64,000 bases of DNA from an uncultured Eggerthellaceae bacterium (GTDB lineage Bacteria; Actinomycetota; Coriobacteriia; Coriobacteriales; Eggerthellaceae). Below, piece by piece: positions 20,718 to 59,236 of the stretch. The DNA lies in the NCBI GenBank assembly GCA_905234785.1, contig CAJOIP010000021.1, positions 1-64,000 of the forward strand, given 5' to 3'. Below the pieces are notes generated by a model. That model saw only the letters and a program-made list of their open reading frames with translations, was not told the DNA's origin and searched no databases. The number at the start of each line of letters is the position of its first letter. Positions within the stretch are counted from its first letter, which is position 1. A program made the translations under genes and the position numbers.

Positions 20718-20857
20718 GGGAAAGGGCCGCTGGCGGAGAGGGTGAGCGTTTGTCCTCGCACGCTCAGCGGCAATAGCGCATCAAAAACCGCAACAGCAAT
20801 CGCCGCTTCGCTTAGCTGCGGAATCGCGCTCATCCTCTTCGCCAGCGGCCCTTTCCC
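20718..20857. repeat. Long near-perfect inverted repeat (31-bp arms)
   Basis: GGGAAAGGGCCGCTGGCGGAGAGGGTGAGCG vs reverse complement of 20827-20857, 2 mismatches. Confidence 0.85.
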
Positions 20858-44088: not shown

Positions 44089-44110
44089 GTGATTCCTTTC
44101 GATTCTCTTT

Positions 44111-44194
44111 GTCATCCTGAGCGTAGCGAAGGATCTCCCTCGCCGCTTCGCGGAGATCCTTCGACTCCGCGCTTCGCGCTCCGCTCAGGATGAC
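44111..44194. repeat. GTCATCCTGAGCG-type palindromic repeat
   Basis: GTCATCCTGAGCG ... CGCTCAGGATGAC with an internal hairpin. Confidence 0.8.
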
Positions 44195-44235
44195 ATGCGG
44201 GGATGCTTCACGCGTCCTGAAGAATGACATGCGAG

Positions 44236-49369: not shown

Positions 49370-50902
49370 TTACAGGTCCTCTTCTTCCAACAGCCTTTCA
49401 ATGCGGGCGCGCAACTGCCGCACGCGGCGATGGTCCTTGCCACCGGCGCTGATACCGACGACGAGCCCTGCGTTTTGCACCACGCCCGGGAAATAGAAAT
49501 CGCACTTGTACCGGTCGCTGCACACGTTCACGGGAATGTGGCGCTGTTTGCATGCAGCCCACACCTCGTCGTTCAAATTGGAATCGTTCGTACACGCAAA
49601 CACGATGTCGGCGCCCTCGAGCACCGATTCGTCGTACGGCTTCCGCACAAGTTCGAGCGCGCCGTCGAGCGCAAACCGCTCGAGCTCGGGCGTGAAATCG
49701 GGAGCGTACACCACGATATCGCCCGCAAACGGCAGCAGCGTGCGGACGCGCCGCAGGGCGATGGTGCCGCCGCCCACGAACACGGCTCGCTTGTCGCTGA
49801 TGTCGATGAACGCTGGGAAGAACGCCCCGGCAGGCGGGCGCTCGTTCGCCATGTTCTCGCGGCGACGGGTCCAATCCCAAAACTCCTCGACGCCCTCCGC
49901 CAGCATGCGCTGTGCCGTAGCGATTGCCTGCGCGTTCTCGGTTCCAATTTGCGCCGAGAAGCTGTCGATGTCGTGAAGCGCACATCCTGACACATCCGCA
50001 ATGGAGGGGTCGATGTCGTGGGGAATGGCAAGGTCGAAAAACTCAATGTGCGCATCGGCACCAAGGGCAGATGCCAACTCGCCGCGTTCGAGCGTATAGT
50101 GCGGGCTCGTCGTGGCGCTCATGACCACCTTGCAGCGCCCGATGTAATCGTAGCGGTCGGCGTAAGGAATGCCCGTGCACCCCCTGGGAATGGTCACCGC
50201 GCCGTGCGTGTACTGGCGCACGGTTACGAGCACCTCGGCACCCTGCTCGGCAAGTGTCGAGGCCGCCAAGCGGCCGTATTCGCCATTGCCGATGACCATG
50301 CACGTTGCACCGAAAAGATCGACGCCGTCATCGTTCAACTGCTCGACCGCCTGATCGATGGCCGTCGCATAGGCGCGCGTGAACCGCACCCCGCTTTTCA
50401 CCTGCTTTGCCGCCGTCACAGCTTGGCGGAACAACACCTCGAGCACGCTATCGGCCACGCCGATCTCGCGCGAGTAGGCTATCGCCTGCTTCACCTGCGA
50501 CACGATTTGGTCTTCGGCCATGATGGCCGAACGCAAGCCGCAAGCAACGTTGAACAGGTGGTCGACTGCCGCATCTCCCGACCGGCATGCGAAATACCGA
50601 GCGTAATCAGCAGGATCGACCATGTGCATCTCGCATATGACCCGCAGCAACGGATCGTCAGCTTTGGGAGCGCCGCCCGCATCCACGCTGCGCATGGGGG
50701 CTGGCACGCCGTCGAAACTCGCCCACAACTCGGTGCGGTTGCACGTGGCCAACAGCACCACGCCGCTCGCACCCAACTTGACGCGGGCGAGCGCCAACAC
50801 GTCCTCGCGCACGTCGGTCGGCAGCGAGAACGCCGAGCGCACATCGGCCGAAGCCAGCCCATGATCGGTGCCGATCATGCAAACAAGTTCATCGCGATTC
50901 AT
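49370..50902 (-). CDS. hemA-sirC: Glutamyl-tRNA reductase fused to precorrin-2 dehydrogenase
   Basis: LLATCNRTELWA, AEDQIVSQVKQA; C-term FPAFIDISDKRAVFVGGGTIALRRVRTLL. Confidence 0.93.
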   Translation of the reverse strand: MNRDELVCMIGTDHGLASADVRSAFSLPTDVREDVLALARVKLGASGVVLLATCNRTELWASFDGVPAPMRSVDAGGAPKADDPLLRVICEMHMVDPADYARYFACRSGDAAVDHLFNVACGLRSAIMAEDQIVSQVKQAIAYSREIGVADSVLEVLFRQAVTAAKQVKSGVRFTRAYATAIDQAVEQLNDDGVDLFGATCMVIGNGEYGRLAASTLAEQGAEVLVTVRQYTHGAVTIPRGCTGIPYADRYDYIGRCKVVMSATTSPHYTLERGELASALGADAHIEFFDLAIPHDIDPSIADVSGCALHDIDSFSAQIGTENAQAIATAQRMLAEGVEEFWDWTRRRENMANERPPAGAFFPAFIDISDKRAVFVGGGTIALRRVRTLLPFAGDIVVYAPDFTPELERFALDGALELVRKPYDESVLEGADIVFACTNDSNLNDEVWAACKQRHIPVNVCSDRYKCDFYFPGVVQNAGLVVGISAGGKDHRRVRQLRARIERLLEEEDL

Positions 50903-50917
50903 TCGCCTTACCTCTCA

Positions 50918-51070
50918 GGTGAGCGCAATGGCGGGCGTGAGCCCGGCGGGCAGCAGGGGCATGCGCCGCTTGCGCAGCCGCCATTTTTGAAATACCCAAT
51001 ACATTCGGCGAGCAGCCGTAGGCGCATGCCCCTGCTGCCCGCCGGGCTCACGCCCGCCATTGCGCTCACC
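50918..51070. repeat. 50-bp perfect inverted repeat around a conserved core
   Basis: 50918-50967 is the exact reverse complement of 51021-51070; core shares CGCCTACRGCTGCTCG and CTGCGCAAGCGGC with 53689-53816. Confidence 0.93.
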
Positions 51071-52148
51071 GTTTCCTTCTCTTCTTCAACACGTAATTCA
51101 AAATACCGCCCACCACAATGATGACGATGGCGATAATGAGCACCTTTATGGCCGCCTCCTGCGGGATGGCGTCCTTGTCGTCGATCGTGGTCGAATAGAA
51201 CGTCAGGTGGTACTCGATTTCCACCGGGTCGCCCATGGCCGTGGTATCGGCCACGACCGGCATCTCCTCGTCCATCTGGGTAATGGGAATGATGAACGTC
51301 GAGTTGCTGCCATCGTCGGTCAGGTTCTCATAGCGCTGCTCGTCGACGATCATGTAATCGTAGTACGAGCTCGACCACAGCAGTCGCGCATAGGCGTGGC
51401 CGTCTTCGACGATGAGCCAAGTCGGCGAGCTCACCGAGGCACGCCCGCTGCCGCCCGTCATGTTCACCTCGATGGAGTACTCGCCATCGGGCAAGTCGAC
51501 CGCAACGGCCTCGTAACCGTCCTCATGCACGACACCCGTAGCCACATCGGCACTGGTCTTCGCCACGTTCACGCTTTCCGGGTCGACGGGGTCGCCGTAT
51601 GTGGGCAAATCGACGAGCAACGCGTCGGCCGGCAACGTGGCCGCGTAGAACATGAGCTTGCGGTCGTACCACATCTTGCGGCGCTTGCTCCACGCCGCGC
51701 AGTCGATTTCGGCATCGAGCGCTTCCACGGGCACGGTGAACGTCCAGGAGTCGCCGTCGAACTCGATGTAGTCGCTTGCGGGCGCATCTGCGGCCTCCTG
51801 GCCCGTTCCCATGTACACGAGCGGATAGCTCTTCGAGTCGAACCCGATTTCCGCCGTCATCTTTCCGTTGCGCACGGTCAGCTTCGCGCTCTTTATCTTG
51901 AAGAACGGCGATGTCGATTCAGCTTCGATTTCGTACGTGCCGTCTTTCACCTTGTCGCCCGTGATGGGCGCCATGCCCTCGAGCAGCAGCACCTTCGAAG
52001 ACGCCATCTGGCTTGCAGACGCCACCTTGGCATGCGCTTCGTCGGCGAAGGCAGGCTGCGCGAACGCGCACGCGCCCAGCAGCATGCCGAGCATCAACGC
52101 CACGAGAACGGTTGCAGTATGCCGAGCGACATTACCCACGCAGGGCAA
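51066..52148 (-). CDS. Exported membrane-anchored protein with two surface domains
   Basis: Signal peptide; domain A DGTYEIEAES...WYDRKLMFY; domain B TGGSGRASVSSP...WSSSYYDYMIVD...DTTAMGDP; C-terminal TM and KKRRKR. Confidence 0.8.
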   Translation of the reverse strand: MPCVGNVARHTATVLVALMLGMLLGACAFAQPAFADEAHAKVASASQMASSKVLLLEGMAPITGDKVKDGTYEIEAESTSPFFKIKSAKLTVRNGKMTAEIGFDSKSYPLVYMGTGQEAADAPASDYIEFDGDSWTFTVPVEALDAEIDCAAWSKRRKMWYDRKLMFYAATLPADALLVDLPTYGDPVDPESVNVAKTSADVATGVVHEDGYEAVAVDLPDGEYSIEVNMTGGSGRASVSSPTWLIVEDGHAYARLLWSSSYYDYMIVDEQRYENLTDDGSNSTFIIPITQMDEEMPVVADTTAMGDPVEIEYHLTFYSTTIDDKDAIPQEAAIKVLIIAIVIIVVGGILNYVLKKRRKR

Positions 52149-52905
52149 CCTCCCTCATCATGAGCGCCTGCTCCACGTGGTCGCACACAAGCTGCTGAAT
52201 GCCGGCGTATTCGCCAAGGCCCTTCAACACGGGAACCGCCTCGAGCCCGCATGCGGCAACGCGGCTGGCCCACGAGTCGTCATCCTCGCCCGCCAAGTCG
52301 TTTTTCGCATGATCGCCGGCAACGATCATGAGCGGCGCCAAGTGCACGCGCGCAGCCCCGCTCGCCTGAACGAGCGGCCATACGTCGTCGAACGTCGGCT
52401 CGCCTTCCACCGTCGCCACGAAAAAGCGGTCGTTGCCCTGCGCATGGAACGCTTCCTGCACCTGACGGTACACCTCGTTGCCGCCGGTCGGCGATCCGTG
52501 GCCCATCAGCAGCACTGCGTCGTCGGCACCCAGGCCTGCAAACTCATCGGCAATGGCGCGCGCCACGGCGGCCTGATCGCCAGGGGAATTCAGCAACGGC
52601 TCGGCAATCTCCGTCGGAATGTTGCGCTCGGCGGCCCACGGAATAACGGCTTTCTCGATCTTGGCCATCTCGGCGCCGTGCATGAGGCACGTCGTCGACA
52701 CGATCAGGTCGTCCACGCCGTCCAGCGTATCGTGGTGCTCTCCGCGCTCGGCAGCCACCTTCTTTATGATCATGCCGCTCGTCCACGCGCTGTACGGCGT
52801 GCAATCCGGAAACGCCGCGCGCACCTTCGCCTGAATGGCGTCGATGGTCTTCACGCGCGTATCCTCGTGCGACGTTCCGAAGCTCACGAACAGCATGCCC
52901 CTCAT
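52132..52905 (-). CDS. cbiK: Cytoplasmic sirohydrochlorin cobaltochelatase
   Basis: FVSFGTSHEDTR, LMHGAE, LLMGHGSP, VAGDHAKND. Confidence 0.9.
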   Translation of the reverse strand: MRGMLFVSFGTSHEDTRVKTIDAIQAKVRAAFPDCTPYSAWTSGMIIKKVAAERGEHHDTLDGVDDLIVSTTCLMHGAEMAKIEKAVIPWAAERNIPTEIAEPLLNSPGDQAAVARAIADEFAGLGADDAVLLMGHGSPTGGNEVYRQVQEAFHAQGNDRFFVATVEGEPTFDDVWPLVQASGAARVHLAPLMIVAGDHAKNDLAGEDDDSWASRVAACGLEAVPVLKGLGEYAGIQQLVCDHVEQALMMREVALRG

Positions 52906-52915
52906 ATGCGCCCCC

Positions 52916-53647
52916 TTACAGGTTTTTCTTCTTATAGATGAACGCAAACGAAATGCCCGCGAACACCGCCAGGTACACCGCCAACACCACAAGCCCCATC
53001 AGGTTGGGGTCGTTGCCCTGCGCGATGGCGCGCACCATGTCGGAAGTTTGCGACAACGGCAGCGCCTGCACGAATTCCTTGATGCCGTGCGGCATCTGGT
53101 CGGTCGAGAAGAACGTGTTGCACAGAAACGACATGGGCATGATGATATAGGTGTTGAACCGCGGTGCGTCGGTGTAGCTCTTCGCCAAAAACGACAACGC
53201 CACCGCAATCGTGGCGAACACGGTGCCGTTCACGAACATGATGACGAACGACAGCCAGTTGAACACGAGCGACGTGCGGATGGGCGATATCAGCAGCAAG
53301 ATGACCACCGCCGCGTACATGCCGCGCAGCGCGCCGCCCACAATCTGCCCCACGATGAACTGCCACAACGGCGTGGGCGACACCATCACCTGATCGAGCG
53401 CTTTCTCGTACAGGCGCTGCACGCTCATGTTCTGCGACACGGCGCTGAAGCTGCCGGTCATCGTGACCATGGCCACGATGCCGGGAATCAGAAAGTTCAG
53501 GTACGGCTCGCCGTGCGAGGTGGTCTGAATGCCCAGCCCGAACACGAGCAGGTACATGAGCGGCGAGATCATGGCCGCGACCGTGATCTTGTAGAAGTCG
53601 CGTTTGAACTCCGCCCATTTTTCCCACAGTACCGTGATGATGCCCAT
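52916..53647 (-). CDS. ABC-2 type transporter permease
   Basis: Six-TM ABC-2 pattern, FLIPGIVAMVTMTGSFSAVSQNM. Confidence 0.88.
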   Translation of the reverse strand: MGIITVLWEKWAEFKRDFYKITVAAMISPLMYLLVFGLGIQTTSHGEPYLNFLIPGIVAMVTMTGSFSAVSQNMSVQRLYEKALDQVMVSPTPLWQFIVGQIVGGALRGMYAAVVILLLISPIRTSLVFNWLSFVIMFVNGTVFATIAVALSFLAKSYTDAPRFNTYIIMPMSFLCNTFFSTDQMPHGIKEFVQALPLSQTSDMVRAIAQGNDPNLMGLVVLAVYLAVFAGISFAFIYKKKNL

Positions 53648-53688
53648 AATTACTTCCGCCGTTGCATCTGGCGCCCCATTCCAGCTCA

Positions 53689-53816
53689 GGAAACGCCGGC
53701 TGATTCCGCCTCAGGATGCCGCCTACAGCTGCTCGGCGGGTATCTGCAAACCATCCCCATGACTATGCCGCCTGCGCAAGCGGCCACATCCTGAGGCGGA
53801 ATCAGCCGGCGTTTCC
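53689..53816. repeat. 30-bp perfect inverted repeat around a conserved core
   Basis: 53689-53718 is the exact reverse complement of 53787-53816; core related to 50918-51070. Confidence 0.92.
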
Positions 53817-54659
53817 CTACCTTTTCGTAATGCGGTGGCCCACCCTTTCCACGAACACGTCTTCCAATGTCGTCGCGCGCAGCACGGCGTCGTCCGGCAG
53901 CTCGCGCAACCGTTCGATCGCCGCTTCGCGCGTGGGGAAATACTCGCTTTCCAACTTGCCATCCACCAGGTTGTCGATGGCGAAGGGACCCAGCTGGTCG
54001 ATGAGCGCAAGCGGCGCATCCACCACGTCGAGCTTGCCGCCGTCGATGAACGCCACGCGGTTGCAGAGCGCCTGCGCCTCGTCGATGTAATGAGTCGTCA
54101 GCAAGATGGTGAGGTTGCGGTCCTTCAGGCTGCGCAGCAAGTCCCACATCTGGCGGCGCGCCAGGGCATCCATGCCGGCCGTGGGCTCGTCGAGCAGCAG
54201 GATCTCGGGTTCCACCATGAGCGCGCGGCAAATCATGAGCTTGCGCTTCATGCCGCCGGAAAGATGGCGTACCGTGCGATGCCCGAAATCGGAAAGGCCC
54301 GCGAACTCGAAAAGCTCTTCGGTTTTCGCGCGGATCTCCTTCTTGCGCATGTAATACAGGCGGCCCTGGTATTCCATGACCTCGTTCATGGTCATGTCCT
54401 GGCGCATGGAATACTCCTGCGTCACCACCGACAGCTTGCGTTTCACGGCGGCCGCCTTGCGGTTCAGCTGCTGTCCGTCGATCAGGATCTCGCCCGACGT
54501 CGGCAGCAGCACCGTCGACATCATGCTGATGGTCGTGGTCTTGCCCGCACCGTTCGGGCCGAGCAGCCCCATAAACTCGTTCGTCTGAATGGTCAAGTTC
54601 AGGTGGTCGACAGCGGTGAAGTCGCCGAATCGTTTTGTCAGGTCGCGAATCTCGATCAT
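53817..54659 (-). CDS. ABC transporter ATP-binding protein (ABC-2 associated)
   Basis: GPNGAGKTTT, LSGGMKRKLMICRAL, LLLDEPTAGMD. Confidence 0.93.
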   Translation of the reverse strand: MIEIRDLTKRFGDFTAVDHLNLTIQTNEFMGLLGPNGAGKTTTISMMSTVLLPTSGEILIDGQQLNRKAAAVKRKLSVVTQEYSMRQDMTMNEVMEYQGRLYYMRKKEIRAKTEELFEFAGLSDFGHRTVRHLSGGMKRKLMICRALMVEPEILLLDEPTAGMDALARRQMWDLLRSLKDRNLTILLTTHYIDEAQALCNRVAFIDGGKLDVVDAPLALIDQLGPFAIDNLVDGKLESEYFPTREAAIERLRELPDDAVLRATTLEDVFVERVGHRITKR

Positions 54660-54774
54660 CGAAGCAACTCCGCTGGATGCTGGGCGGGCAAAGCCCGAGA
54701 TCCCTCGCTAACGCTCGGGATGACAAAGGGGGCGTGCTTCGCGCTCCGCTCGGGTTGACAAATATGGGGCATGC

Positions 54775-55464
54775 TTACGCGCCCTTCACGATGACGACCG
54801 AGAAGTAATCGCCGTCTTCGTCGATATCGGCAAGGTGGGGAAACACCTTTTCATCGGGCAGCCCGCAATTGGCGACCATGCTGGCACGGTCGAGTTCGCC
54901 GCGCGCTTCCAGCTTGTCGCGCAAATCGTGCACAGCCTTGCCCGATTTCATGAACACCTTGTTCGCCGGCACGTTCAAGATCTCGTCGACGTTGCCCGAC
55001 ATGACCGGCGAAACGAGCAAGCGCTCGGAACCTTCGCACAGCACCATGCCCAGCCGGGCCGCGCTCGCTGAAAAAGACGTGACGCCCGGGATGATTTCCA
55101 CATCGTAGCCGGCAGCGCGCACCCGCTCGTTCACGGGCGCGAAACTGGCGTACACGCCGATGTCGCCAAGGCACAGGTAGGCGACGTTGCGCCCCTCGGC
55201 CAGAAACTCGCAAATCCTCCGCGCGTTCTCGGCATAGGCGGCCTGGCGCACCTGCGCATCGCGCGTCATGGGCGTCGAGCACTCAATCTGGGGCTTGCCC
55301 TTTATGTGTTCCGCAGCAATGGAAAGCGCCGTCTGACGTCCATGCCCGATGTTGGGCACCGCGATAACATCAGCTTCGCGAATGGCGCGTATCGCCTTCA
55401 GCGTAAGCAATTCGGGATCGCCCGGGCCCACGCTCACGCCATAGAGTGTTCCTTTAACCACCAT
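54775..55464 (-). CDS. cbiL: Precorrin-2 C20-methyltransferase
   Basis: LYGVSVGPGDPELLTLKA and VAYLCLGDIGVYAS. Confidence 0.9.
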   Translation of the reverse strand: MVVKGTLYGVSVGPGDPELLTLKAIRAIREADVIAVPNIGHGRQTALSIAAEHIKGKPQIECSTPMTRDAQVRQAAYAENARRICEFLAEGRNVAYLCLGDIGVYASFAPVNERVRAAGYDVEIIPGVTSFSASAARLGMVLCEGSERLLVSPVMSGNVDEILNVPANKVFMKSGKAVHDLRDKLEARGELDRASMVANCGLPDEKVFPHLADIDEDGDYFSVVIVKGA

Positions 55465-55558: not shown

Positions 55559-56428
55559 TTACAGCTCTTCCAACTCGATGTTGCCGGTTATGGGATCGAA
55601 GACGCCAGGCTCGAGGTCGTACAGGTCGTTGATGACTTCAGGCGTGAAAATCTCGTCGGGCGCGCCCTGCGCGCAGACGCGGTCGCCCTTGATGCACATA
55701 ACGTAGTCGCTTACCTTGCGCGCAAGCGGTAGCTCGTGCAGCGACATGATGACCGCCACGTCGCGCGTGCGCACCAGGCGGCGCAGCACGTTCAAAAGCT
55801 CGATCTCGTAATGGATGTCCAGGTAGTTCGTCGGCTCGTCGAGCATGATCACATGCGGTTCCTGCGCGATGGCGCGCGCGAGCATGATGCGCTGGCGCTG
55901 GCCGTCGGAAATCTGCATGAAGTCGCGGTCGCGCAAATCCCACACGTGCACCATATCCATGGCCTCGCGCACCTTGACGCGGTCTTCCTCGTCGAGGATA
56001 CCCAAACGCCCCGTATACGGGTAGCGGCCCGTTTCCACGATGTCGGCGCACGTCAGAAGCTCGGTGCGCATGCGCTCGGTCAGCATGACCGACAGCTCCA
56101 GCGACATTTCGTGGGCCGAAAGCTCGCCCACGGGCTTTCCCGAGATGAACACGGCCCCGCCGAGCGATTCCAAATAGCCCACGATGCTCTTCAGGATGGT
56201 GGACTTGCCCGCGCCGTTCGGGCCGATGAGCGTGAGGATCTCGCCCGCGTGCAGCTGGATGTTCACATCGCTTATCAGCGGCACGCCATCGTAGCCGACA
56301 ACGAGGTCCTTGGTTTCGAGATAACATGCCTTTTCTACCGTAGGGGCGCTCTCCGAGCGACCGCCGACCGCGGTAGAGGGGCGCTCGGAGAGCGCCCCTA
56401 CGGGATTATTTGCTCCGGGAGCGTTCAT
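55559..56428 (-). CDS. FecE/BtuD-type ABC ATPase
   Basis: GPNGAGKSTILKSI, ISDGQRQRIMLARA, LDEPTNYLD; N-term contains a translated palindromic element. Confidence 0.92.
   Translation of the reverse strand: MNAPGANNPVGALSERPSTAVGGRSESAPTVEKACYLETKDLVVGYDGVPLISDVNIQLHAGEILTLIGPNGAGKSTILKSIVGYLESLGGAVFISGKPVGELSAHEMSLELSVMLTERMRTELLTCADIVETGRYPYTGRLGILDEEDRVKVREAMDMVHVWDLRDRDFMQISDGQRQRIMLARAIAQEPHVIMLDEPTNYLDIHYEIELLNVLRRLVRTRDVAVIMSLHELPLARKVSDYVMCIKGDRVCAQGAPDEIFTPEVINDLYDLEPGVFDPITGNIELEEL
56338..56403. repeat. Palindromic element inside the ATPase coding sequence
   Basis: CCGTAGGGGCGCTCTCCGAGCG (56338-56359) is the exact reverse complement of 56382-56403; translated as PVGALSERPSTAVGGRSESAPT. 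Confidence 0.85.
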
Positions 56429-59154: not shown

Positions 59155-59236
59155 GATAACCATCGTGGGGGCGCTTTCCGGGCGCCTGCCTGCCATGGTT
59201 GACGGGCGCCCGGAAAGCGCCCCCACGGCGGTTATC
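59155..59236. repeat. Palindromic element, same family as 56338-56403
   Basis: 32-bp arms, 2 mismatches; both encode GALSxRPS..GRPESAPT-like strings. Confidence 0.8.

Follow-up and report, generated by a model that had tools for sequence, protein, structure and literature searches.

A dispersed hairpin family with a conserved core and copy-specific arms in an Eggerthellaceae genus, probably a non-autonomous palindromic mobile element

The window, a 64,000-nucleotide stretch of DNA from an uncultured Eggerthellaceae bacterium, carries a long hairpin between an ABC transporter ATPase gene and an ABC-2 permease gene that are both read on the minus strand. The two 30-nt arms of this hairpin are perfectly inverted, as had been predicted from the sequence, with 100% complementarity; they enclose a centre of 68 nt and extend to 35 nt at 94% complementarity. 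The predicted position at the end of the ATPase gene was confirmed as well: the element directly abuts the ATPase stop codon, and the permease gene, the next gene in the same direction, starts 41 nt beyond it. A GTAG at the foot of the hairpin coincides with the ATPase stop codon. Matches to the element were scored with R1, a covariance model built from 69 copies. The features of the focal hairpin and its neighbours are the following:

53689-53816, minus strand: whole focal hairpin element, with its core reading 5' to 3' on the minus strand (R1 match 82.6 bits)
53689-53718, no strand assigned: arm of 30 nt, perfect complement of 53787-53816
53787-53816, no strand assigned: arm of 30 nt, its outer end touching the ATPase stop codon (53817-53819)
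53772-53784, minus strand: conserved core box 1, GCCGCTTGCGCAG
53721-53734, minus strand: conserved core box 2, GAGCAGCTGTAGGC
53735-53772, minus strand: inner stem and variable apical loop, from the fold and the covariation of the first inner-stem pairs
53817-54659, minus strand: ABC transporter ATPase gene whose stop codon is abutted by the element (PF00005, E 1.2e-34)
52916-53647, minus strand: ABC-2 permease gene, downstream of the element (PF01061 and PF12698)

In the predicted fold of the focal copy, the inner stem is formed by 53735-53739 paired with 53768-53772. Chance alone would not be expected to produce an exact 30-nt inverted repeat in 64 kb, and perfect arms of at least 24 nt were present in the window only in the focal copy and in a second copy at 50918, where they reach 50 nt (50918-50967 and 51021-51070):

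50918-51070, plus strand: second copy, whole (R1 90.2 bits), with its core on the plus strand, against the flanking genes
50965-50977, plus strand: core box 1 of the second copy
51010-51023, plus strand: core box 2 of the second copy

The two copies had been proposed to share a core in opposite orientations relative to their host genes, and both points were borne out. R1 matched the window with 90.2 bits at 50944-51044 (plus strand) and with 82.6 bits at 53700-53805 (minus strand), followed by next-best matches of 17.7 and 16.7 bits, and GCCGCTTGCGCAG ... GAGCAGCYGTAGGC was present in both copies. The focal core has the same direction as its genes, the 50918 core the opposite direction to its neighbours. 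The right arm of the second copy reaches with its outer 5 bp (51066-51070) into the 3' end of the preceding CDS, and this overlap with the last bases of a gene suggests that the palindromes can grow into flanking DNA.

The original prediction had made the reading as a repeat depend on additional copies of the core. A search of this genome with R1 returned 15 strong copies, defined by an R1 E-value below 1e-10, and 3 weak ones, and searching it with the element itself brought up many partial matches whose arms differed. In a collection of public genomes with one genome per species, the exact core pattern was found 58 times in 57 stretches, and these exact matches, together with an arm/core covariation far above shuffled controls, lent the shared core additional support. 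All but one of the exact matches came from rumen or gut Eggerthellaceae/Coriobacteriaceae metagenome-assembled genomes (MAGs). The sole match outside this group, on a Micromonosporaceae MAG contig (L084), was without paired arms and was treated as a chance match. The viral contigs searched with the exact pattern gave 0 matches, and a phage origin was rejected on this ground. In a sample of the family that included this genome, 12 of the 15 genomes of the genus matched R1, with 1-26 copies each, and in the rest of the family two genomes, of two other genera, matched with 1 and 2 copies. One of these two (G037) has a contig with the same element as contig 71 of the present genome, so contamination is possible. 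An order-wide sample of 301 genomes added no matches outside the family. The core is confirmed as a real repeat family that is restricted to the genus apart from a few matches.

Pairing was found to be conserved from the arms into the core. In A1, 84.8% of cells paired in the stated structure, against 62.6% when the 3' letters were shuffled and at most about 50% when the structure was slid, and the covariation score was 0.517 against 0.155 in shuffled and at most 0.171 in slid controls. The first pairing of the core, as used in R1, was contradicted by variant cores, which left the column-29 pair unpaired in 31 of 62 matches, and was replaced for that reason. In the revised core, GCU-U-GC pairs with GC-A-GC, with compensated changes between GC, CG and AU. 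For A2, which consists of 62 matches from four other genomes that were fitted to R1, a model that does not favour the revised pairs, the revised core reached a covariation score of 0.641 against 0.149 after shuffling. Core pair 29-130 was CG in 29 of the A2 matches, GC in 27, GU in 3 and AU in 2, while core pair 30-129 was CG in 53 and UA in 9; the core variants in A2 included GCTTCCGCAG/GAGGAGC, GCTTACGCAG/GAGTAGC and GCTTGTGAGG/GAACTGC. The conserved unpaired features were a bulged U, a YGUA bulge and a small internal loop beside the inner stem.

The arms behaved differently along their length, and the claim that they are unrelated between copies held only for the outer part. The outer arm is effectively copy-specific, while the inner arm has a weak family consensus (about GGAGGGGTGNNCGCC). 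Outer arms were 29% identical between copies in this genome (G000), about 29-35% identical in most of the genomes examined and 42-70% identical in four. One genome (G114) had arms that were alike between copies, with 88% identity over the inner 12 nt and 70% over the outer 12 nt. The element's own arms measured about 28-31 bp and were longer in some copies, giving an overall range of 28-67 bp. In 17 of 73 copies the arms ended 28-32 bp from the core with termini of the form (GTA or GCA)|GC...GC|GGAC-like, which places GTAGC or GCAGC at the 5' foot and a GGAC-like sequence at the 3' foot; most other copies were without these motifs. Flanking direct repeats, as expected of a target-site duplication, were at the shuffled level with none above chance. 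The arms were shown to belong to the element, yet to turn over quickly.

The turnover of the arms could be followed at sites that are shared between species. Orthologous comparisons yielded 51 compensated double differences, 24 one-sided differences and 3 others, counts that are partly non-independent because one locus enters the comparison in four ways and one set is inflated by a coordinated length change of a single base. Between L096 and L174, with flanks that are about 89% identical, there were 4 compensated differences, among them a C-G pair swapped to G-C, versus 2 one-sided differences; the pairs L082/L177 and L271/L282 showed one-sided changes only. In two sister species (L081/L089) the same site with near-identical flanks held the centre inverted between the arms. 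This inversion takes in the asymmetric bases beside the core, and reversing the core computationally restored the alignment. A second such case is L009, in this genome, where the remaining half-core is oriented oppositely to that of L100 relative to the flanks. Multi-base compensated arm changes and an inverted spacer between unchanged flanks, the signature of template switching, were both found. Template switching between inverted repeats has been described in yeast, where it homogenises arms and inverts spacers (PMC8604942), and in RNA genes it can create and maintain hairpins (PMC8794818). We infer that it causes the arm homogenisation and the flips in the present family, and compensated arm change can also stem from selection on RNA pairing.

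Several of the sites are occupied differently in related genomes. At the ATPase/permease junction of nine relatives nothing like the element was present, and the spacers measured 1-117 bp. The 50918 site in G118 holds a coreless palindrome with 33-bp arms instead of the element, and several other sites of this genome are empty in relatives or hold hairpins of other families. Since relatives are empty or carry other hairpins, the hairpin accepted at a site near a stop codon seems to vary from species to species. The site in G103 that is orthologous to the L095 element (L164:280-510) contains a hairpin with different arms and only half of the core (GCCGCTTGCGCAGGCGGC). In one predicted gene, the same linker (L080:918-980, L082:3983-4061 and L177) holds a core element in G120, a coreless 38-bp palindrome in G118 and a short hairpin in this genome.

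Gene positions were taken from a simple codon-usage gene finder. Copies between genes were flanked by co-directional genes in 52 cases, convergent genes in 28 and divergent genes in 14, and 4 copies were inside predicted genes; copies within predicted protein-coding genes were observed at L058, L080, L108 and L348. The element lies mostly near the 3' ends of genes, just after stop codons. Relative to co-directional genes the core was antisense in 39 copies and sense in 13 (28:8 in the first set and 11:5 in the second), with a two-sided p of 0.0004 that is optimistic because some of the loci are orthologous. The focal copy is among the sense-oriented minority.

Taken as a whole, the family is probably a genus-restricted, non-autonomous, dispersed palindromic mobile element of the REP/MITE-like kind, roughly 100-170 bp in length, that was moved in trans in the past and whose arms are kept matched by template switching. 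Its copies would have spread through a trans-supplied enzyme that recognised the bulged hairpin. Within a resident copy, template switching between the arms during replication would copy one arm onto the other, and because of this copying the arms would drift together and become copy-specific. The same process would flip the spacer from time to time and may let the palindrome grow into the host DNA that flanks it. An orientation bias is not predicted by template switching, and the 39:13 excess must have some other cause. Neither an autonomous relative nor a transposase could be tied to the family.

The enzyme that moved the copies may have been a Y1 transposase (RAYT-type, IS200/IS605-like), now inactive in this genome, in which case the family would be a REP/REPIN or TIR element moved through single-stranded DNA; we consider this unlikely. 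Y1_Tnp proteins, mostly of 250-340 aa, are encoded in 12 of the 15 genomes of the genus, and the termini seen in 17 of the 73 copies, together with the absence of a target-site duplication, would fit such elements. In one REP superfamily GTAG marks one of the ends (PMC3733652), and some Y1 genes of the same genomes are flanked by coreless palindromes. However, the 24 Y1 loci in relatives gave 0 R1 matches, and the distribution of the two does not coincide: this genome has 15 copies and no Y1 transposase (PF01797) was detected in it, whereas G119 and G125 have Y1 matches and no element copies. The hairpin family is also conserved in its centre, while REPINs are conserved at their ends and less so in the spacer (PMC3116915). 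A Y1 transposase was set aside as the mover, given that the Y1 loci carry coreless palindromes rather than the core element and that no Y1 gene was detected in this genome.

Long coreless palindromes flank several of the Y1 (RAYT-like) genes of the genus (L313, L318, L321, L324, L325, L329, L330 and others), and their types recur elsewhere, for example at L198, at L082:3983-4061 and at other orthologous sites. They look like the TIR families of TIRYT/RAYT transposases (PMC3733652), from which the core element differs by its conserved core and its absence from the 24 Y1 loci. A second, unrelated hairpin with a conserved core and variable arms, family B, was observed at L174:6424-6594 (contig 29) and also at L215-L244. 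It is about 170 bp long, its arms are perfect up to 52 bp and its termini are partly the same as those of the core element; there were 6 matches in this genome, 22 in G118 and 17 in G114. Because of the partly identical termini, a shared mover is possible. As a tentative and rather speculative extension, the hairpins might form a novel class of mobile hairpins in bacteria, conserved in nothing but their structured core and with arms that are continually rewritten by template switching from each other or from flanking host DNA. This architecture is common to the unrelated families A and B, whose termini are partly the same, and one enzyme may move any hairpin with such ends.

A role at the RNA level was considered for the focal copy and for the family. 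When transcribed, the focal element with its flanks has a predicted fold of -97.4 kcal/mol, and the hairpin between the ATPase and permease genes could, on weaker grounds, serve in mRNA processing, stability or attenuation. That it affects the ATPase/permease transcript, and hence the expression of the two genes, is plausible because similar repeats, ERIC among them, influence the stability of mRNA, for ERIC depending on orientation (PMC2229807). That the family as a whole is a cis-acting structured RNA (for 3'-end processing, attenuation or mRNA stabilisation), selected for pairing and with a conserved bulged site on which a trans factor would act, appears even less likely than movement by a Y1 enzyme. 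Conserved unpaired bases amid covarying stems would fit such an RNA, as would the location just after stop codons and the existence of an orientation bias, but the direction of this bias sets the conserved orientation antisense to the mRNA, the sites are empty in close relatives and no common flanking gene was seen. An Rfam search of 50000-55000 gave no family above the gathering score and only sub-threshold miRNA/sRNA matches, and assignment to a known RNA family was rejected. An intrinsic terminator was likewise rejected: a scan that considers only loops of 3-8 found no terminator-like site in either direction at the focal element, and no T-run was seen in its sequence. Strand inference from G.U versus A.C pairs was abandoned, since the G.T excess of 68:30 came largely from one clade-linked column and fell to 46:30 without it, a ratio at which wobble pairs are not clearly favoured.

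It is very improbable that a mobile core entered palindromes already present in the host, for example terminator hairpins, with the arms being host DNA. Arms that differ between copies, and the other hairpins that often occupy the same sites in relatives, would agree with such insertions; the reading is disfavoured because the arms carry a family consensus, seen in the inner arms generally and over most of the arm length in many G114 copies. The conserved termini of 17 copies, 28-32 bp away from the core, argue in the same direction, and none of the empty sites was seen to carry the same palindrome. Least probable of all is a programmed inverton, a phase-variable switch flipped by a site-specific recombinase: there are two in-place inversions, but both are between species, most orthologous copies compared are not flipped, the arms have no recombinase site in common across copies, inspection by eye showed no promoter-like sequence common to the apical loops, and the focal element contains no promoter match.

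The family was also compared with known systems. Like REPs and REPINs (GTAG REPs and REP doublets forming hairpins), the elements are short, dispersed, extragenic, imperfectly palindromic and near gene 3' ends, with compensatory hairpin changes, no target-site duplication seen and a GTAG/GCAG-like foot motif in a minority of copies. Unlike them, the hairpin family is conserved in its bulged centre and has copy-specific arms of 28-67 bp, whereas single REPs measure 20-40 bp; moreover, no RAYT was detected in this genome and none was found next to any copy. As its ends are not conserved and it showed no transposase association, the core element falls outside the REPINs as these are defined. With MITE-like palindromic repeats (ERIC, Correia/NEMIS and RUP) it has in common a length of about 100-170 bp, the non-autonomous and intergenic nature, the long-stem transcript and an occasional location inside genes. 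It differs from these in its central conservation and in having no common terminal inverted repeat and no target-site duplication above chance. In the broad sense of the term the element is nevertheless MITE-like, being multi-copy, non-coding, palindromic and absent at orthologous sites of relatives. Arm homogenisation, spacer inversion and the creation and maintenance of hairpins are shared with the products of template switching at quasipalindromes (PMC8604942, PMC8794818); in the present case the process apparently operates at many loci of a dispersed mobile family, across several species.

It has long been asked how a long hairpin can change in sequence and still keep its pairing perfect. 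With dozens of independent dispersed copies and a fixed core as an anchor, arm conversion, extension and spacer inversion become countable. The family further shows that a mobile DNA repeat can display strong covariation, a feature usually read as proving a functional RNA. It also points to a mobilisation system in Eggerthellaceae.

Other inverted repeats were observed in the window. Two related ones with arms of 22-23 nt, CGTRGGGGCGCTYTCCG..., are located at 56338-56403 and 59164-59227; one of the two lies near the start of an ABC ATPase gene, and a similar sequence is present in G118 at the site orthologous to L173. At 20718-20857, a perfect inverted repeat of 18 nt with a 104-nt spacer gave the weak R1 match of 17.7 bits and is possibly a decayed relative of the core family. 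The inverted repeat TGTCATCCTGAGCG is found at 44110-44195, and a similar motif recurs in locus L021.
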